From positions 62,001-126,000 of the forward strand of contig JANWYV010000053.1 of NCBI GenBank assembly GCA_025055075.1: DNA of 64,000 nucleotides, written 5' to 3'. This stretch comes from Blastocatellia bacterium. GTDB taxonomy: Bacteria; Acidobacteriota; Blastocatellia; HR10. Made by a program: the position numbers and the translations under genes. Position 1 is the stretch's first letter; the number at the start of each line of letters is the position of its first letter. A model generated the notes under the pieces. That model saw only the letters and a program-made list of their open reading frames with translations. It was not told the origin of the DNA and did no database searches. Positions 34,034 to 50,119 of the stretch are shown in pieces.

Positions 34034-36574
34034 ATGGAGAAGCTCGGCGAGAGCGTAGATTATCGCTATTATCTCGACCTCCTTCGTCGAGGCAAGTGGA
34101 CGATTCTGGCATCGGCCCTGCTGTGTCTTGGTCTCGCCTTCCTCTCGGGATTTTTGCGGACGCCGCTCTATCAAGCGCAGGCAACGGTATCGGTCGAACT
34201 TCCTCCGGCGCCGGTTGACCCTACGCAAGCTCTGATGGCCCCACAGTACAATAGCTACTTCGACTACGAGTACTACTTTCAGACGCAGCTTCGCATTCTC
34301 TCCGGCAATACGCTAGCGCTGCGCGCCGCCGATGCGCTCGCGCGGTTGCCGCAGTATCAAGGGCGGCGGCGAGAGGAGCTAGCGGCGGAGCTTCAAGCTT
34401 CGGTCACGCCACGCCAGGTGGAGAACACGCGGATCATCGCCATCGCCGTGACGCGTGAATCGCCGGAGGAGGCGGCCTTGTGGGCGAACACAATCGCTGA
34501 AACATACATTGAGGCCAATCTCGAGGAGCGGAAGAAGAGCTTTCAGGAGACGATCGCCGCCTTGAAAGCTCTGCTCGAGCGAGCGGAAGCGAACCAGGCG
34601 CAAGTGATCGAGCGATTGCAACAGGTCGCTTGGGAGTTCGGCCTTGTCCCGACCGAGGCGACCGGAGGGAAAGTCGATACCAGTGCCCTAGAGGCGGCGA
34701 CGCGGATTCTCTCAGAGGCGCAGCGGGAGCGACAGCAAGCTGAAGCGCGATATCAGCAGGCCTTGGCGGCGCGGGAGACTCCTCAACGTATCGCCGCTTT
34801 GCTCTCCGGTCCGAACGAACTCAGCGGACTTCTGGAGCGAAAGGCAGCACTAGAGCGGGAGCTGCGCGAATTGGAGCGAAGAGGATTCCTGGAACGGAAC
34901 CCGCGCGTCGTTCAGCTCCGCGCGCAGTTGAGCGCGTTAGAGGAGCAGATCGCGCGAGCGACTGATGCCGCTTTGGAAGCACTCCGAAACGAGTTGGAGG
35001 TAGCCCGTCAAAAAGAGGCAGAGGCCCGACGCGCGCGCGATCTCGAGCAACGGCGCGTGCAAAGTGCCAGCACCGACCCACGGTTCCTCGATCAAATCCT
35101 ACAGCAAGCGATCACTTCGGAAATCGCGCGTGAGCTGAAGCAGACGTTGAACCGCGTCGAGTTAGGGGGACAGCTCCTTCGCAATAACATCGCCCTCGTG
35201 GATCGCGCCATACCGCCGCGAGTCCCGCTCAATCGTCAAAGCCCGCGCGTCTTGCTGTTGGGGCTGCTCGGCGGACTCGTGCTCGGCGTGGGGATTGTGC
35301 TCGCCAAGGACTTCATGGATCCCACGATTCGAGATTCGGAGGAGATCGAGCGGCTTCTGGAACGGCCCGTGCTCGGAGAGATCCCCCATTCCGCCCGCAC
35401 GGAGGAATTCGCTTGGCGCGAGGCCTTTCATGAGTTATGGACGAATCTCAAGCTTTTCCATCGCGGGCTCTCAGCGCCTGCGATTTTGATCACCAGCTCG
35501 GCGATGGAGGAGGGCAAGACGGCGGTCGCGTGCGAATTGGCGCGAACGGCAGCGGCGCTTGGCGCGCGCACGGTCCTTGTGGATTTGGACCTGCGTCGTC
35601 CGGATGTGCATCGTCGGTTCCCCGGACTCAAGCGTCGGGGACCCCAGCTTGGGGCCGTCTTGATCGTTGATGATGAGCCGGCGATGCGGCAGCTTCTCGC
35701 AGAAGGACTTGTGCTCCTTCAGCGTCGCGGGATCGGAAATGGATGGACGCTCGGCCCGCTTTTGATGGCGAAAGATGGAGAGGAAGCGCTGGCGAAAGTT
35801 CGCGACAATGAGGTCGCGGTTGCCATCGTGGACATCAAGTTGCCGGGGATGGATGGCACCGAGCTGCTGGAACGCATCAAGGGATTGAGCCCGCAGACGG
35901 AAGTCGTGATGATCACGGGACACGCGTGCTTGGAGACGGCCATCGAGGCCGTTCGTCAGGGGGCTGCCGATTATCTCACAAAGCCATTCGACATAGATGC
36001 CTTACGGGAAGCGGTCGAACGCGCGTTGCAGAAGCGCGTGCGACGAACTTTTCCGCCTTCGCCTCCGGAGGACAATGGGATCGTAGCTTATCTGACGGGC
36101 GAAGCCGAACTATCGGCGCTTATCTGCGAGACCGATGTGCCGAACCTGTATGTCATCCCTGTCGGTCGTCCTCCGCAAAACCCGTTCCTATTGCTCGATC
36201 GGACGATCTTGCAAGAGTTGGTCCGGGGACTTAAGGCGCAATTCGAGTGGATCGTCATTGATTCCCCACCGCTCACCGCGGTGAGCGATCCTATGGTGAT
36301 CGCCTCCGTCGTGGATGGGGTCCTTTTCGTCGTTCGGTTCAATCACACGGATCGAAAGGTCGTACGGCGAGCCATGCAGCGGCTCACGCGGGCGGGCGTC
36401 CACATCTGGGGCGTGATCTTCAACGCCATTCGCCCAGAGGAGAGCCGATACGAGCGCTACTATTCCCGCTACGAGTATCATCCGCGCGAAGAAGGGGAAT
36501 TGAGGAAGCCAGCGTGGCGTCAAGGGGTGGAGAGGATCTGGGCCGTTCGGCGAAAATGGCGCGCAGGGGGGTGA
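34034..36574 (+). CDS. Wzz/BY-kinase polysaccharide co-polymerase with an inserted response-regulator receiver domain
   Basis: An 846-residue inner-membrane protein (start ATG 34034). Residues are numbered from this Met. Domain order: Wzz N-terminal domain with a membrane helix near residues 23-41; a long coiled-coil periplasmic region (about 160-375); a GNVR/second helix (about 405-425); then a BY-type tyrosine kinase. The kinase has Walker A SSAMEEGKT (about 488-496), Walker A' VLVDLDLRRP (514-523), Walker B WIVIDSPP (739-746) and a C-terminal tyrosine cluster (YERYYSRYEY). Between A' and the GIVAYLTGEAELS block sits a complete receiver domain at about 541-667, with acidic pair D546/D547, phosphoacceptor D600, T628 and K650. 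This replaces only the short loop normally present there. It probably controls exopolysaccharide chain length and export. The insert suggests control by a histidine kinase (inference). Confidence 0.9.
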   Translation: MEKLGESVDYRYYLDLLRRGKWTILASALLCLGLAFLSGFLRTPLYQAQATVSVELPPAPVDPTQALMAPQYNSYFDYEYYFQTQLRILSGNTLALRAADALARLPQYQGRRREELAAELQASVTPRQVENTRIIAIAVTRESPEEAALWANTIAETYIEANLEERKKSFQETIAALKALLERAEANQAQVIERLQQVAWEFGLVPTEATGGKVDTSALEAATRILSEAQRERQQAEARYQQALAARETPQRIAALLSGPNELSGLLERKAALERELRELERRGFLERNPRVVQLRAQLSALEEQIARATDAALEALRNELEVARQKEAEARRARDLEQRRVQSASTDPRFLDQILQQAITSEIARELKQTLNRVELGGQLLRNNIALVDRAIPPRVPLNRQSPRVLLLGLLGGLVLGVGIVLAKDFMDPTIRDSEEIERLLERPVLGEIPHSARTEEFAWREAFHELWTNLKLFHRGLSAPAILITSSAMEEGKTAVACELARTAAALGARTVLVDLDLRRPDVHRRFPGLKRRGPQLGAVLIVDDEPAMRQLLAEGLVLLQRRGIGNGWTLGPLLMAKDGEEALAKVRDNEVAVAIVDIKLPGMDGTELLERIKGLSPQTEVVMITGHACLETAIEAVRQGAADYLTKPFDIDALREAVERALQKRVRRTFPPSPPEDNGIVAYLTGEAELSALICETDVPNLYVIPVGRPPQNPFLLLDRTILQELVRGLKAQFEWIVIDSPPLTAVSDPMVIASVVDGVLFVVRFNHTDRKVVRRAMQRLTRAGVHIWGVIFNAIRPEESRYERYYSRYEYHPREEGELRKPAWRQGVERIWAVRRKWRAGG

Positions 36575-36577
36575 GAG

Positions 36578-37753
36578 ATGAGTGCTTCCATCGTGACGGC
36601 ATTACTCAGCAGCATTTTCGCATCGGTGGTCGTTCTCTCGACCGTCGTGATTCGACCTTCAGAGACGAGGCCGCCACTTGGGCCTCAAGGCGATCTGCAG
36701 CCCGTTCTCGCAGAGGATGAATGTTGCGGGGGGATCTCGCAAGGCGAATTCGCGCTTCAATTGGCGTGGGCCTTAGGTCTGGCCGAGCCACCCGAGGGGT
36801 GGACAGCCGCACGGGCGGCGCGCGAGTTGGAACGCTTGGGGCATCGTCCCGAAGGAGGATGGCGGCTTGCGGCCCCCTTGCGCGAAGACGATCTGATGCA
36901 AATGCTTCGCGGGACGCGCTTCGCTCAGCATCCGGCGGCGCAATCGGGGCAAGGGGCTGTCACACGCGCGCGCGTGCGCGCGATCTTTCGCGACGGGATG
37001 CCCGTCACTCAAGGACGATTCGCGCAAATGCTCGCGCGCGCACTGGCGCCCGATCGGCTCTTCACGGTCGAAGAAGCGGTCGCTTGGCTGCGCGCGCGAG
37101 GGCTTGCGCCGGCCGAAGGATGGGAGCCCGACGAATGGATGAGCGAGCGCAAGATGTGGGATGTCCTCTCGCGAGCGGGTTGGCCGGTCTCCTCCATCGT
37201 GCGAGTGATGCCGGAGATCGGCGAGCTTCCGGTTGATCACGCGCGCGCACACGCGCTCCTTTTCGAGCGGCGCGATCTGCCGACGCAGGCGATGCTCGCC
37301 ATGCTCTTGGTGAAAATCTCCGGACTCGCTGCTCCTGCCCAAGGATGGACGTTAGCGGCGGCGCTCGCCGAGTTGGAGCGGTGGAATGCGCGCCCGGAGT
37401 ATGGATGGACTCCATTGGCCCCCGTTTGCGAAGCCGATCTCGTGCGACTCTTGCGGCGCGCGGGCATCATCATAGAGCCTGTGAATCGGTGCCGCGCCGT
37501 CACGGCCGTGGAGGTCGAAGGGGAGGCTTCAGTTCTCGATTTCATGCGCGCGCTGAGCCCAGTGCCCCAGAGGCTGCGCGTGATCGAGGGTCCGATCTTT
37601 CGACCGCTCTCGGCGACTTCGTTGATCGTCCCATTGGCGCCGAGCACATTGGCGGGAAATGTTCCCGCACCGGCGACGCCTGTTCCACCGGAGATCGTCG
37701 GCCCGGCGATTCCCAGCGTCTATTCCGTCTCGCGGCCGAGGGCGGGATTTTAG
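36578..37753 (+). CDS. Exported protein with three SLH-like repeats
   Basis: A 391-residue protein starting 3 nt after the BY-kinase stop, so almost certainly in its operon. A hydrophobic N-terminus (residues 4-25) forms a signal or anchor. Three imperfect ~60-residue repeats follow at about 53-111, 143-200 and 234-296. Each has a helix of the type QGEFALQLAWALGL, a W-T-A-A...L-E-R-L-G helix, and a G-W-x-P/L-...-L-x-x-M/L-L-R ending. This resembles a degenerate S-layer homology (SLH) pattern. A C-terminal region rich in proline (about 340-390) follows. I do not recognise the family. Its position suggests a role with the exopolysaccharide, perhaps binding it (inference). Confidence 0.72.
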   Translation: MSASIVTALLSSIFASVVVLSTVVIRPSETRPPLGPQGDLQPVLAEDECCGGISQGEFALQLAWALGLAEPPEGWTAARAARELERLGHRPEGGWRLAAPLREDDLMQMLRGTRFAQHPAAQSGQGAVTRARVRAIFRDGMPVTQGRFAQMLARALAPDRLFTVEEAVAWLRARGLAPAEGWEPDEWMSERKMWDVLSRAGWPVSSIVRVMPEIGELPVDHARAHALLFERRDLPTQAMLAMLLVKISGLAAPAQGWTLAAALAELERWNARPEYGWTPLAPVCEADLVRLLRRAGIIIEPVNRCRAVTAVEVEGEASVLDFMRALSPVPQRLRVIEGPIFRPLSATSLIVPLAPSTLAGNVPAPATPVPPEIVGPAIPSVYSVSRPRAGF

Positions 37754-37778: not shown

Positions 37779-38891
37779 ATGAGGATTCAGCGCGTCGAGC
37801 TTCGGGAGATCCGCATGCGACTTCGCGCTCCGTTCGAGACGAGTTTCGGGCGCACCGACTGGCGGCGTATCTTGCTCGTTCGCATCTTCGATACCGAAGG
37901 AGAGCAAGGGTGGGGCGAGTGCACGGCTTCCGAAGAGCCATTTTACAATCACGAATTCGTGGATGGCGCGTGGTTGGTGATGCGCGATTTTCTCATCCCA
38001 ATGTTGCTGAGACGCGAGTTCGCAACGGTTGACGAAGTTCCCGCGTTCTTCCGCGCCGTTCGCGGGCATAATATGGCCAAGGGGGCATTGGAGGCCGCGT
38101 GTTGGGACCTACAAGCGCGACGAGAAGGAAAACCGCTGTGGCAACTCCTCGGCGGCACGCGCGCGGAGATCGAATGCGGCGTCTCCATTGGCATTCAGCC
38201 TTCGCTCTCGGATTTGGTGAAAGCGGTTGAACGAGAGCTAGCGGCTGGCTATCGGCGGATCAAGGTGAAGATCAAACCGGGCCTGGAGCGAGAGATCGTG
38301 GGAGCTGTGCGCGCGGCTTTCCCCGATATCCCGCTTATGGCGGATGCCAATGCGGCCTACACGCTCGAGAACGCGGAGGTGCTCCGCGCGCTCGATGACT
38401 TCAACCTGATGATGCTCGAGCAGCCGCTGGCTCACGATGATCTCTTGGACCATGCGGAGCTGCAGCGGCGGATGCGCACTCCCATCTGCTTGGACGAATC
38501 GATCACGAGTGCCGAGAAAGCCCGGAAGGCGCTGGCGATCGGGGCATGTCGGATCATCAACGTCAAGCTCGGGCGCGTTGGGGGGTATACCGAAGCGCGA
38601 CGCCTGCACGATCTCTGCTCCGCGCAGGGCATACCTCTCTGGTGCGGCGGGATGTTGGAGTCGGGCGTCGGGCGAGCGCACAACATTGCGCTCTCGACTT
38701 TGGAAGGTTTTTCTCTGCCGGGCGATGTCTCGGCGAGCCGGCGCTATTGGGAGCAGGACATTATCGAACCTGAGGTCGAAGTCACGCCGCGAGGGACGAT
38801 TCGAGCGCCAATGGAAGCCGGGATCGGTTTCGCAGTGAACGAACGACTCATCGAACGATGGACCGTGCGCCGGGAGGTGATCGCGTCATGA
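37779..38891 (+). CDS. menC: Enolase-superfamily o-succinylbenzoate synthase / N-succinylamino acid racemase
   Basis: A 370-residue MR/OSBS-subgroup enolase-superfamily enzyme. Catalytic Lys164 in the KVK motif, metal ligands D189, E214 and D239, and the second Lys263 (INVKLGRVGG) are all present. N-terminal capping segment RLRAPFETSFGRT and late CGGMLESGVGRAHNIAL are typical of MenC2/NSAR. The function could be menaquinone synthesis or N-acylamino acid racemisation, because the two cannot be distinguished by sequence alone; no other men gene is in the window. It overlaps the next gene by 4 nt (ATGA). Confidence 0.87.
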   Translation: MRIQRVELREIRMRLRAPFETSFGRTDWRRILLVRIFDTEGEQGWGECTASEEPFYNHEFVDGAWLVMRDFLIPMLLRREFATVDEVPAFFRAVRGHNMAKGALEAACWDLQARREGKPLWQLLGGTRAEIECGVSIGIQPSLSDLVKAVERELAAGYRRIKVKIKPGLEREIVGAVRAAFPDIPLMADANAAYTLENAEVLRALDDFNLMMLEQPLAHDDLLDHAELQRRMRTPICLDESITSAEKARKALAIGACRIINVKLGRVGGYTEARRLHDLCSAQGIPLWCGGMLESGVGRAHNIALSTLEGFSLPGDVSASRRYWEQDIIEPEVEVTPRGTIRAPMEAGIGFAVNERLIERWTVRREVIAS

Positions 38892-41518
38892 AGGGGGATT
38901 CGCGTCAGAGGGTGCTTGGCCTTCTTCTGGTCTTCATCGCAGGAATGCCGTGGCGTTGGAGCGTCCGCGGTGAGCGAACTGAAGAGCTGTGGCTCCTGAC
39001 GGATCGCGCGGTGTTGGTGAGCGATGATCGTGGGCAGACATGGAAGGGGGTATCTCTAGGGAACGGTCGACGGCGCCTTCATGCGCTGCGCAAGCGAGCG
39101 AGCGAGGGAGCATGGGTTGCAACTAGCGACGGGCTCTTCCGCATCGCCATGGTGGGCCGACGCGCTGAACGGTTGCTGTGGGAGGAAACGTTCTCCATAG
39201 CGGAGAGTCAAGGACGCCTTTTCGCCGGGACTCGGCGAGGGCTCTTGGTGAGCGATGACGGAGGGCGGCGCTGGCAACGCATCTCGGCTTTGCCCGATGG
39301 GCTCGTTCCCATAGCGATTGAGGTAGCACCGTCACATCCCGAGGTGATCTACATCGGGACGGTGCGACACGGCGTGTATCGCAGCGACGATGGAGGGAGA
39401 AGCTGGAAGTCGGCGAGCGTGGGGCTGCCTCCAGCCATCGGCGCGGCACCGTATACTCCCGTGCGGCAATTGGTCGTCCATCCGAGCGATTCGCGCACCG
39501 CGTATCTCGGGAGCGAAGCGCACGGCGTCTACAAGACGACCGATGGGGGAGAGACATGGCATCCTGTGAACGTGGGCTTGTCCTGGCGGTCCGCCTATCC
39601 CACGTTGCCACCGCTTCTCGCCATCAACCCAGAAGATCCCGAAATCGTCTACGCGCTTATCCGGCGCCGCCTCGATTCAGCGCGCGTCGAGAACGCTCTT
39701 TATAAGAGCGCGACCGGAGGCCAATTCTGGCGCGAACTCACTGGGCTCTCGGCGCACCACATCTTCCGCGGGCTGACCATTGATCCTCGACAACCGCGTC
39801 GGTTGCTGCTGACGCATACTGAGGGCGTCATCGAAGTCTTTGACCATCCCGCGTGGGACGTCTTCTTCAAGACCCCTGCGCCGGAGATCCGCGCGCTCGA
39901 TGTTTCGCGCGCCACTGCCTCAAGGAGCTTGGTCGAGATCGTCGGCCAGATCTCAGTCATGACGGCCGATCGTGAAGTCTTTCATGAATTCGATCTGGAT
40001 CGCCGGAGCCTTCAGTTCACCCCCGTTTTCGACACGAGGCGACGGTTTCTCGGCTACGACGTCTCTTTCGTCCCCTTGGCCTTTATCCTTGAGGGGGAGC
40101 GGGTTCGGATTGAGGACGAGGGATTTCTCGAGCGATCGCTACCCTTCGCCTTCTCTTTTTACGGTCAGACCTTCACAAGCGTCTTCCTCAATGCCAATGG
40201 GAACCTGACCTTCGGGAGTCCCGATCCCGATCCGACGCCAACCGAATTGGAGTTCGTGACGAAGCAGCCGCGGATTGCTCCACTTTGGCTGGATCTCGCC
40301 CCTTCTAGGGGCACCGTTCTCATCTGGGAGGAGTTCGACCGCGTCGTTATCACATGGCGCGATGTGCCGGAAGTACCAGAAGTGGAGATCGCCGAGGCGC
40401 TCCTTCCACGAAACACGTTCCAAGTGGCGCTCTTTCGCGATGGACGAATTCTGTTCAGCTACAACGGCGTCGAGTCGGTGAGAGGGCTTGTGGGGATTTC
40501 GTCGGGCAATCGCCAAGCATTCTGGCGCGTGAAGTTCACCGCGGACATCTCGGCGGATCCTCTGCGGCCGACGTCCTTTCGTCCACCATGGCGTCAGGGC
40601 GACCTGCCGATCGGCGAGCTGTTCCGCGCGGGACTCCTGCTCCGAGAGGTCGCGCGGCGCTTCTTCACCCGGCATCCCGATGCGTTCGATCTCTTGATCA
40701 TCTATGGAGCGAGCACCTTCGAACGTTTGACGATCACCGGACGCGTCGTCCAAAGAGGAGCCTTCACGCTTCCCGTCGCCGCGTGGGTGAAGAATGAGAT
40801 CGAGGGGCTTGGGCTCCCCATCTTCGACGACGCAGCGACGTTCGGCAGTGCGGGCCGATTGCGACTGGTTGTGAATATGGACCTGCTGCGATCCTATCCG
40901 GCGGATCCGTTGGAGGAATTTCTCGGCACGAAATCGGCCATGGACATCCTCGCCCAGATGGTCGGACATGCCTGGGGAGCATATGTGCGCTTCGATGACG
41001 GCGGCGTGTCCAGCGATGCTCTGCTTGCTGGAACGGAGAGGTTCACCTGGAGTTTCTTCCTCGACACGGATGCGTCGGAACTGGACGGGCATGATTGGGA
41101 GATCCTTTCGGGGAACCGCTTCCGCTCCGTGGCGGCGAACGAGCGATACAGCCCCCTCGATCAATACCTGATGGGGCTTCGCCCGCCGGAGGAGGTCCCT
41201 CCCTTCTTCTTGATCGAGAACCCGACGGAGACGGAAGGACGCACGCGGGGAAGCCCGCCCGAACTCGAAGTGGTCGTAAGGGGTTCGGCCCGCACGATCA
41301 CGCTCACCGATATTCTGCGGGTTGAAGGCCCGCGACGGCCGGCCTATGTGGAAGCGCCGAAGGTCTTTCGCGCGGCGTTCATCCTCATCGTCCCAGAGGG
41401 ATTTCCGGTGACGGCCATTGATTTGAACAAAGTCGAGCTTTTTCGTCGCACCTTCGAACTGTTCTTCAAGCAGGCGACCGAGGGACGGGGACGCCTTGAG
41501 ACGGAAGTGATCTTTTGA
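38888..41518 (+). CDS. Large secreted Asp-box/sortilin-like protein with degenerate metalloprotease-like C-terminus
   Basis: An 876-residue protein with an N-terminal signal (LGLLLVFIAGM). Residues 30-320 contain BNR/Asp-box repeats: SDDRGQTW (45-52), SDDGGRRW (122-129), SDDGGRSW (166-173) and TDGGETW (218-224), expected to form a beta-propeller like Ycf48/VPS10 domains. Residues 410-550 (FAFSFYGQTFTSVFLNANGNLTFG) look like a nidogen-like domain. The C-terminal part (about 660-800) has ILAQMVGHAWGAYVRFDD followed by YSPLDQYLMGLRPPEEVPPFF. In related proteins, as I recall them, the first segment reads as an HExxH zinc site; here it is QMVGH, so activity is doubtful. Start ATG overlaps menC. 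Function unknown. Confidence 0.8.
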   Translation: MKGDSRQRVLGLLLVFIAGMPWRWSVRGERTEELWLLTDRAVLVSDDRGQTWKGVSLGNGRRRLHALRKRASEGAWVATSDGLFRIAMVGRRAERLLWEETFSIAESQGRLFAGTRRGLLVSDDGGRRWQRISALPDGLVPIAIEVAPSHPEVIYIGTVRHGVYRSDDGGRSWKSASVGLPPAIGAAPYTPVRQLVVHPSDSRTAYLGSEAHGVYKTTDGGETWHPVNVGLSWRSAYPTLPPLLAINPEDPEIVYALIRRRLDSARVENALYKSATGGQFWRELTGLSAHHIFRGLTIDPRQPRRLLLTHTEGVIEVFDHPAWDVFFKTPAPEIRALDVSRATASRSLVEIVGQISVMTADREVFHEFDLDRRSLQFTPVFDTRRRFLGYDVSFVPLAFILEGERVRIEDEGFLERSLPFAFSFYGQTFTSVFLNANGNLTFGSPDPDPTPTELEFVTKQPRIAPLWLDLAPSRGTVLIWEEFDRVVITWRDVPEVPEVEIAEALLPRNTFQVALFRDGRILFSYNGVESVRGLVGISSGNRQAFWRVKFTADISADPLRPTSFRPPWRQGDLPIGELFRAGLLLREVARRFFTRHPDAFDLLIIYGASTFERLTITGRVVQRGAFTLPVAAWVKNEIEGLGLPIFDDAATFGSAGRLRLVVNMDLLRSYPADPLEEFLGTKSAMDILAQMVGHAWGAYVRFDDGGVSSDALLAGTERFTWSFFLDTDASELDGHDWEILSGNRFRSVAANERYSPLDQYLMGLRPPEEVPPFFLIENPTETEGRTRGSPPELEVVVRGSARTITLTDILRVEGPRRPAYVEAPKVFRAAFILIVPEGFPVTAIDLNKVELFRRTFELFFKQATEGRGRLETEVIF

Positions 41519-48038: not shown

Positions 48039-48764
48039 TCAGTAAATTCGCGGGATGAGGCGTGCCGTTCGGCGTTTGTATGCGGCATATTCTGGGAACG
48101 TACTTTCCAGGATCTGCTCTTCATACCGCATGCGCATGAGTTGGGCGAAAAGGAAGAGGACAAATAGCAACAGCGCGAACCCGGAGAATGCCTGCAAGAT
48201 CAAGCCGAATCCGGCGAGGATCTCGCCGAGATACATCGGATGCCGGACAATGCCGTAAGGACCGCACGTAACGAGTCTCCGCGCCTCGGGGAAGATACTG
48301 AAGGAGCGTCCGAGCGCGAGGAGGGCCGCGATGGTGATGGCGCTGCCGGAAACCATCAAGATCGTGGCGCCCATCGTTTGGAGCAGCGTCGGCTCGGTAT
48401 TCGGGAAAACCGCGATGAACGTCAGGAGGAAAGAACCGAACAAAGCCATCAGGCGAGGTCGCACACCTGCGCTCTTCCGGATCGGTTGCGGGCGCGAGAT
48501 GAAGAGCACGGTGATGAGCAGCAAGAAGAAGATGACCGAGAGGTGATAAGCGATCTGCGCGAGCGCGGTCGCTCGAGCGAGCGCTCCAGCATCGCTCGGC
48601 GGAAGAGGGAAGAGATTCGGGAGCTTCAATAGGCGCGCCAGCGCGACCGTGAGGAAGAAGGTCGCCGGGAGTATCCGCGTGATCAACAGGATCCGCACCC
48701 CCTCGTCCAAAGGGCCAAGGGGCGCCACGCGCGTGGGCATCGAGGAGGTTGGAGGCGAGCTCAT
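48039..48764 (-). CDS. Isoprenylcysteine carboxyl methyltransferase family membrane protein
   Basis: A 241-residue integral membrane protein with about five helices. The ICMT/PEMT motif is CGPYGIVRHPMYLGEILAGFG near residue 160; the conserved Arg-His-Pro and the following E are the SAM-binding segment of this family. The late EEQILESTFPEYAAYKRRT is also typical. It could methylate a lipid or quinone. The start overlaps the histidine kinase stop (ATGA), so the pair is one transcription unit. Confidence 0.82.
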   Translation of the reverse strand: MSSPPTSSMPTRVAPLGPLDEGVRILLITRILPATFFLTVALARLLKLPNLFPLPPSDAGALARATALAQIAYHLSVIFFLLLITVLFISRPQPIRKSAGVRPRLMALFGSFLLTFIAVFPNTEPTLLQTMGATILMVSGSAITIAALLALGRSFSIFPEARRLVTCGPYGIVRHPMYLGEILAGFGLILQAFSGFALLLFVLFLFAQLMRMRYEEQILESTFPEYAAYKRRTARLIPRIY

Positions 48765-50119
48765 AGTGGGAGAAAGATCGTCACAGTCGTCCCTTTGCCC
48801 GGGCTGTTTTGAACGGTGATCTCCCCGTTGTGCGCTTCGATGATACGGCGCGCCGAAGCCAGTCCGAGACCAGTTCCGAAAGGCTTCGTCGTGAAAAATG
48901 GGTCGAAAAGCCTCTCCATATTGCCGGAAGCGATACCTACACCGGAATCGCGGATGGCGATGCGCACGAATCGTTGGTGTGAACGGTGGGGAATCTCACC
49001 GAGATCGGTAGTGACGACGAGCTCCCCCGCTTCGGGCATCGCTTGCACCGCGTTGAGCAGGAGGTTCCACAGGACTTCCTTGATCAAGTCGGGATCGACG
49101 GAGCACAACGTGACGGACGGGGAGAATTCCTTACGGATGCGGATGCGCGGATTAAACTGCGGGTCTTTCTGAAGCAGATCGAGCGCTTGCTCGATCACAT
49201 CATGAATAGGGGTGAGGACGGGCTCCGGATCCGGCATGCGCGCGTAGGTCAGGACCTGTCGAGTGAAATCGTTCAAGCGCTGCGCTTCCGAAGAGATGAG
49301 CCGCAAGAGCTCGCGCTCGTTCTCGTCGGCGTGGGGGCGGAGTTGCAACAACAGTTCTGCTGCGTTAGCGATCGCGCCCAAGGGATTTCGAATCTCATGG
49401 GCGAGGATCGCGGTCATCTGGCCGATGTTCGAAAGCTGGTGCGCTTGCATCAGCTTCCGTTCCGTTATCATGAGCCGTCCCCTGAGCTTCTCCACTTCGC
49501 GCGTCAACTCCTGAATGCGCGCTTCGTAGGCCTCTTCTTTTTTATGGGCATCGGTCTTGTCGAAGAAAGCCGTCACGACGCCGATGATCTCGCCCGCATA
49601 GCCGCGCAGAGGCGCTGCCCACCCGATTAGCAGCCGTCGTTCGCCTTCGGGCGTCAGAGCGCGCAGATCCTCAACGAGGACGGGCGCACCGCTTTTGACG
49701 GCCCGCAAGGAGGGGAACCATTCGGTAGGATAGATGCCGATGTCCGGGTGGTAGAAGCCATAGAAGTCCGTGCAGTTGAAAAGCGTCGAACGCGGCTCCA
49801 ACCGTCGGCCGAGCAATTCTTGTAAAGCGCGGTTCATTGAACGAATCCTCCCCGACGGCCATTCGGCGATCCAAACGGGAATGGGAAAATCACTCATGAG
49901 GGCGTCCAGACCACTGAGCAACAACTCGTTCGCCTGATAATGGACATGCGAGCGATCTGTGGGCTGCTCCCCCTCTTTCTGTGTTTCTGAATCCGAACGG
50001 TGTTGGAGCAATTCCTCCTTGAAGAACGATCTCCCAGCAAGGAGAAGGAAGGGCACCAGTGCCCAGAGGCCCTGACCCGCGTTCCCCAGCAAGAGACACC
50101 CCTCTTGTGCGATGCTCAT
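48761..50119 (-). CDS. PAS-domain sensor histidine kinase
   Basis: A 452-residue kinase. A short hydrophobic N-terminal segment (LWALVPFLLLAG) gives one possible membrane helix. A PAS domain follows (about 90-210: IPVWIAEWPSGRIRSMNRALQEL). Then come a coiled coil, the H-box (TAILAHEIRNPLGAIANAAELL), and an ATPase domain with the N-box LLNAVQAM, DSGVGIAS and GLGLASARRIIEAHNG motifs. It resembles NtrB-type kinases. No response regulator is adjacent; the receiver domain in the BY-kinase 12 kb away is a possible but unproven partner. Confidence 0.92.
   Translation of the reverse strand: MSIAQEGCLLLGNAGQGLWALVPFLLLAGRSFFKEELLQHRSDSETQKEGEQPTDRSHVHYQANELLLSGLDALMSDFPIPVWIAEWPSGRIRSMNRALQELLGRRLEPRSTLFNCTDFYGFYHPDIGIYPTEWFPSLRAVKSGAPVLVEDLRALTPEGERRLLIGWAAPLRGYAGEIIGVVTAFFDKTDAHKKEEAYEARIQELTREVEKLRGRLMITERKLMQAHQLSNIGQMTAILAHEIRNPLGAIANAAELLLQLRPHADENERELLRLISSEAQRLNDFTRQVLTYARMPDPEPVLTPIHDVIEQALDLLQKDPQFNPRIRIRKEFSPSVTLCSVDPDLIKEVLWNLLLNAVQAMPEAGELVVTTDLGEIPHRSHQRFVRIAIRDSGVGIASGNMERLFDPFFTTKPFGTGLGLASARRIIEAHNGEITVQNSPGKGTTVTIFLPL

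Follow-up and report, generated by a model that had tools for sequence, protein, structure and literature searches.

How does a complete response-regulator receiver (REC) come to lie inside a bacterial tyrosine (BY) kinase, and what might it do there? The question is raised by one gene in the window, the 64,000-nucleotide stretch of DNA analysed here, whose 846-residue product we call the REC-kinase. The signals controlling BY-kinase activity are described as largely unexplored (PMC5035731). We favor the reading, at a probability of roughly one half, that the protein is a PCP-2a BY-kinase/co-polymerase in which phosphorylation of the receiver aspartate gates assembly or activity.

Domain architecture of the REC-kinase

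The reading frame is open throughout and encodes a Wzz/PCP-2a BY-kinase with a complete receiver that separates Walker A' from the GIVAYLTG block (Table 1). Specifically, Pfam places Wzz at residues 9-98 (PF02706, E 1.6e-8, above cut-off), GNVR at 383-426 (PF13807, detected below cut-off), CbiA split across 484-805, and Response_reg at 542-662 (E 2.1e-25); thus, a co-polymerase half is fused to a kinase. With the NCBIfam model for polysaccharide biosynthesis tyrosine autokinases (TIGR01007), the protein reaches 129.2 bits, above the cut-off of 108.05, although the match is split. A Wzz/GNVR half, Walker A, A' and B motifs, and a C-terminal tyrosine cluster (YERYYSRYEYHP, with equivalents in the orthologues) together place the protein among the PCP-2a BY-kinases. 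In a phmmer search of PDB chains, residues 469-531 and 682-819 align to residues 23-83 and 90-228 of VpsO (6u1q), and therefore the receiver, whose L539 begins at nt 35648, occupies the position of a VpsO loop of ~6 residues. This short loop follows Walker A' and adjoins the nucleotide-binding DxD motif.

The receiver has its full set of five active-site residues (DD, D, T and K, as defined in PMC12632262), namely D546, D547, the phospho-acceptor D600, T628 and K650, with Tyr647 at the switch position; this is the DD, D, T/S, K set of a phosphorylation-competent PF00072 receiver. AlphaFold2 models the receiver with pLDDT blocks mostly at 89-98, and Foldseek matches it to the NtrX, DctD and CheY receivers (TM to the NtrX receiver up to 0.91), consistent with a (beta-alpha)5 fold. 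The kinase halves are modeled poorly (below 62) because only three alignment rows covered them, and viral contigs screened for further kinase rows yielded no relatives. The receiver is thus predicted to be an independently folded domain with a fast-evolving linker on its C-terminal side, and we infer its position relative to the active site and the ring from sequence.

Table 1. Features of the REC-kinase gene and the genes downstream, in window coordinates.
Feature	Position	Strand	Basis
REC-inserted Wzz/PCP-2a BY-kinase gene, 846 aa	34034..36574	+	open frame, Pfam, TIGR01007, orthologues in three further genomes
Wzz/GNVR co-polymerase half, residues 9-426: two TM segments, long periplasmic region, proline motif before TM2	34058..35311	+	Pfam PF02706, PF13807; sequence
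Degenerate ring-interface motif REAFHELW replacing EX2RX2R, both Arg substituted	35417..35440	+	motif counts in REC-kinases vs canonical
Walker A SAMEEGKT, residues 489-496	35498..35521	+	alignment with canonical paralogues
Walker A' VLVDLDLRRP, residues 514-523	35573..35602	+	alignment with canonical paralogues
Inserted receiver, residues ~539-668; long alpha1-beta2 loop	35648..36037	+	Pfam, AlphaFold2, Foldseek, dN/dS
Flexible linker from REC back to kinase, residues 669-680, fast-evolving	36038..36073	+	identity to other species
C-terminal kinase half, Walker B WIVIDSPP at residues 739-746	36074..36493	+	aligns to VpsO, Etk, Wzc, CapB
Tyrosine-rich tail YERYYSRYEYHP	36449..36484	+	sequence; tail tyrosines in 4/4 orthologues
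Companion gene, 391 aa, hydrophobic N-terminus, starts 3 bases after kinase stop	36578..37753	+	no Pfam match; orthologues in G001, G003, G005
Enolase-superfamily (MR/MLE) gene, same run	37779..38891	+	Pfam; retained in G002, G004
Large BNR/Sortilin-repeat gene, signal-like N-terminus	38858..41518	+	Pfam; absent with kinase in G002/G004

Conservation, loss and ancestry

An artefact of assembly or binning that fused two genes might be suspected, since those genomes that have named records were assembled from metagenomes. However, two congeners encode full-length orthologues with 79-80% identity, and one other genus of the same family encodes one with 58%, such that identical architecture and insertion site recur, at 58-80% identity, in four assemblies made independently and covering two genera of this single family, a small lineage within the Acidobacteriota (Blastocatellia). 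The same junctions and conserved synteny in all four, together with an insert that resembles the remainder of the gene in GC and GC3, refute an artefact. An assembly join is likewise excluded, because the insertion is conserved across two genera under purifying selection: between congeners, dN/dS is 0.17-0.20 for the receiver and 0.10-0.21 for the kinase halves. A recent foreign insertion is ruled out by the matching composition and by an insertion older than the split of the two genera.

Both modules have been kept intact. The receiver residues DD, D, T and K, and likewise the switch tyrosine, are retained in four of four REC-kinases at insert identities as low as ~55%, as are Walker A, Walker A' (DxDxR) and Walker B (DSPP), with GKT, VIDSPP and the tail tyrosines also found in every orthologue. 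Walker A' and Walker B are separated by 219-225 residues in REC-kinases; in 37 BY-kinases of the ordinary kind from Acidobacteriota, the spacing is 72-76. Fast evolution is confined to the 12-residue linker that follows the receiver, where identity to other species is 8-25% against 71-78% for its flanks (G000 versus G001/G003). An earlier note on this DNA had described a complete receiver inside a Wzz/BY-kinase, with an uninterrupted frame and both kinase halves intact, including Walker B and the tyrosine tail. Pfam, TIGR01007, the VpsO alignment and the motifs held in four orthologues bear out this description, and the five receiver residues that it named are exact. The note had also proposed looking for the insertion in related genomes, where close relatives lacking the insert would count against it; all four REC-kinase assemblies, from two genera, retain it, and relatives show either a complete REC-kinase or loss of the gene.

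Within the family, the REC-kinase is encoded in each of the four most complete genomes. In G001, G003 and G005, the order of kinase, 391-residue gene, enolase-superfamily gene and BNR gene is preserved. In two less complete congeners, G002 and G004, synteny is intact and the enolase gene stays, but the kinase gene is absent, and so are the 391-residue gene and the BNR gene on either side of the enolase gene, both of which encode putative exported proteins. The C-terminal part of the 391-residue gene remains in G002, as do two BNR remnants in G004, which indicates past loss of these two genes, as opposed to their never having been acquired, and parsimony extends this to the kinase. These remnants lie at L112 7457-7582 and L113 8230-8457. 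Because the three genes were lost together, the data suggest that the REC-kinase, the 391-residue protein and the BNR protein act jointly. Such deletions with remnants might also be taken as the endpoint of decay, in which the kinase was disabled by the insertion and its gene has since been drifting to loss. Intact frames and purifying selection on the receiver and both kinase halves, in four genomes from two genera, disfavor this account and make it improbable.

The genes around the REC-kinase encode an acyl-CoA synthetase-like protein, GroEL, an enolase-superfamily protein and the BNR protein, with no polysaccharide cluster among them. A canonical 769-residue BY-kinase paralogue with an intact EX2RX2R motif is encoded in the same genome (L083 9031-11340) at an exopolysaccharide-type locus, and its orthologues in G001, G003 and G005 occupy similar loci, alongside a PHP-type phosphatase-like gene in G003 and G005. 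Since the ordinary paralogue holds such a locus while the REC-kinase gene lies outside any polysaccharide cluster, the case for the REC-kinase governing polysaccharide chain length is weaker. No histidine kinase adjoins the gene. A histidine kinase with a GAF-like sensor region lies ~12 kb away (window 48761-50119, minus strand), with no adjacent response regulator noticed beside it; it is a possible candidate phosphodonor.

How widespread is this arrangement? Profile searches combining kinase and receiver were designed to detect the same insertion site and scored 5-7 candidates per genome, such that terminal fusions and other insertion points escape them. Among 396 Acidobacteriota genomes, joint matches (>600 bits) occur only in this family, and the next best are single-domain matches at no more than 163 bits. 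The same-site profile, again with few candidates per genome, gave no joint match in ~1,350 genomes from four other phyla and assorted taxa: 299 from the phylum of Hyphomicrobium, 345 from that of a deltaproteobacterial record, 343 from that of a Phycisphaerae record, 339 from that of Pleurocapsa, and 27 assorted. Among plasmids, none of 2,448 matching records reaches 80% coverage of the kinase-plus-receiver query, and in a literature search of partial coverage we found no paper describing a receiver inside a BY-kinase. A putative fusion of His-Asp and tyrosine phosphorylation of this kind was not seen in any other BY-kinase sampled by these same-site searches. BY-kinase and receiver modules are each known; as far as tested, their combination and the insertion site are new.

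The earlier note had likened the receiver to the NtrC/AtoC type, but tree and sequence place it elsewhere. It is most closely related to receivers at the N-terminus of a hybrid histidine kinase (REC-GAF-PAS-HisKA-HATPase-REC) present in three congeners. The inserts group with these receivers in a single clade (support 98-100/94) in trees built from 26-32 receivers, and both possess a long alpha1-beta2 loop, showing by sequence a common ancestry. Clean copying of the receiver from the hybrid kinase is not upheld: in the tree, the hybrid-kinase receivers even fall closest to the kinase receiver of G005, but monophyly of the kinase receivers stays allowed (p-AU 0.08), so that copying may have run either way. 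The hybrid kinase was not found in G005, although that genome has a REC-kinase; the place beside rsmA where it was sought holds other genes. When co-loss of the hybrid kinase was checked, the neighboring HEAT gene in G002 ran off its contig end, and the sole long synteny match in G004 lay on a 5.5-kb contig. At L080 3036-8593, the hybrid kinase gene overlaps by 4 bp a gene for a 1064-residue protein made almost entirely of HEAT repeats, and the two proteins may form a signaling unit.

The lost ring motif and a proposed receiver gate

If the receiver does regulate the kinase, how might phosphorylation be communicated? Of 37 canonical Acidobacteriota BY-kinases, 34 carry the EX2RX2R motif, whereas all four REC-kinases lack it and read EAFHELW, EAFHGLW or EAYHAVW at this site, with both arginines replaced. 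In CapB, this motif of helix alpha2 provides half of the octamer interface, and the contact area is reported to be essential for trans-autophosphorylation and polysaccharide synthesis (PMC3795738). Given these motif counts, we do not file the REC-kinase with the octameric-ring (Wzc/CapAB-type) members, which are also marked by a place in a polysaccharide biosynthesis or export cluster that the REC-kinase gene lacks. The segment preceding the motif position (the 'RK-cluster' region of Wzc), which is usually long, is very short, and the P and G of Walker A are replaced by M/V and E.

We hypothesize that a phosphorylation-competent receiver, placed within the brief loop that follows Walker A', allows a histidine kinase to set the state of the tyrosine kinase. 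The donor would probably be a sensor kinase, soluble or hybrid, whose gene lies elsewhere; by receiver ancestry, the related hybrid kinase is a candidate. Phosphorylation of Asp600 would alter contacts between receivers, or between the receiver and its neighbors, and these contacts would take over from those of the lost EX2RX2R motif in controlling assembly of the cytoplasmic ring. The change in assembly would switch trans-autophosphorylation of the tyrosine tail on or off, and the state of the tail would then set the membrane co-polymerase or exporter. Receiver phosphorylation, the direction of control, oligomerization and the exported cargo are all points that we infer.

Several observations argue for such gating: the ring motif is lost only in REC-kinases while receiver residues, kinase motifs and tyrosine tail are all kept, receiver dN/dS is near that of the kinase halves, the insertion adjoins the DxD motif, the nearest receivers belong to a GAF-PAS hybrid histidine kinase, and EpsW~P/EpsZ offers a precedent (PMC12802240). 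Against it, the flexible C-terminal linker speaks against tight mechanical coupling, the gene has no histidine kinase neighbor and lies outside a polysaccharide cluster, and the related hybrid kinase was not found in G005. On balance, one phosphorylation system probably controls another within this single protein, and it is plausible that His-Asp signaling acts on the tyrosine kinase. A more specific version, in which phosphorylation of the built-in receiver directly switches the kinase by replacing the ring-assembly interface, is tentative and leans toward doubtful.

Loss of EX2RX2R could equally signify an inactive kinase. The main rival to a receiver-gated BY-kinase is a receiver-gated scaffold, in which a pseudokinase or near-pseudokinase fold no longer has tyrosine phosphorylation as its main output and the receiver alone drives assembly and disassembly of the co-polymerase. 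The missing ring motif, the short segment before Walker A, the altered Walker A and the precedent of EcpK, a BY pseudokinase scaffold (PMC12004946), would all fit; yet GKT, DxDxR, VIDSPP and the tail tyrosines persist in all four orthologues, whereas EcpK has lost its Walker motifs and tail. We consider the scaffold unlikely. Less likely again is a receiver that does not regulate the kinase, and serves the hybrid kinase as a phosphorelay way-station or phosphate sink, or acts only as a dimerization or localization module. Its clade membership with the N-terminal receiver of the hybrid kinase and the flexible linker are compatible with this role, but a sink need not be placed within a catalytic domain, conservation of the receiver goes together with that of the kinase motifs, and G005 has a REC-kinase where the hybrid kinase was not found.

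With a receiver beside the DxD motif and a lost ring interface, the receiver-gated kinase would offer a natural, directly testable two-component input into tyrosine phosphorylation. The same case bears on a membrane export machine driven by tyrosine phosphorylation, and the REC-kinase would represent a natural design for placing a tyrosine kinase under histidine kinase command.

Comparison with known systems

The PCP-2a BY-kinases Wzc, Etk, VpsO and BceF resemble the REC-kinase in having a Wzz/PCP half with two transmembrane segments, a P-loop kinase with Walker A, A' and B motifs, and a tyrosine tail. Unlike them, the REC-kinase has a receiver of ~125 residues after Walker A', has lost EX2RX2R, has a short segment before the motif position, and is not surrounded by a polysaccharide cluster. 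In TadZ/CpaE pilus ATPases, a single chain joins an N-terminal, often atypical receiver-like domain to a P-loop domain of the MinD/ParA type. These proteins lack a Wzz half and function in pilus assembly, whereas the receiver of the REC-kinase sits inside the P-loop domain, and no pilus genes were found among its neighbors. EcpK likewise employs a BY-kinase fold to control a PCP-2 protein, but is without the Walker motifs, tyrosine tail and receiver that the REC-kinase possesses.

The hybrid histidine kinase of the same genus (L080 6227-8593) supplies the nearest receiver, with 51-53% identity to the inserts, the same loop and the same clade; there the domain is N-terminal in a histidine kinase, whereas here it lies within a tyrosine kinase. 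In Myxococcus xanthus, the phosphorylated receiver EpsW~P acts on EpsZ to control polysaccharide export post-translationally by altering oligomeric state (PMC12802240). EpsW and EpsZ are separate proteins, and the target is a phosphoglycosyl transferase rather than a BY-kinase, but the system resembles the one proposed here in that phosphorylation of a receiver acts on an enzyme of a polysaccharide pathway through its oligomeric state.
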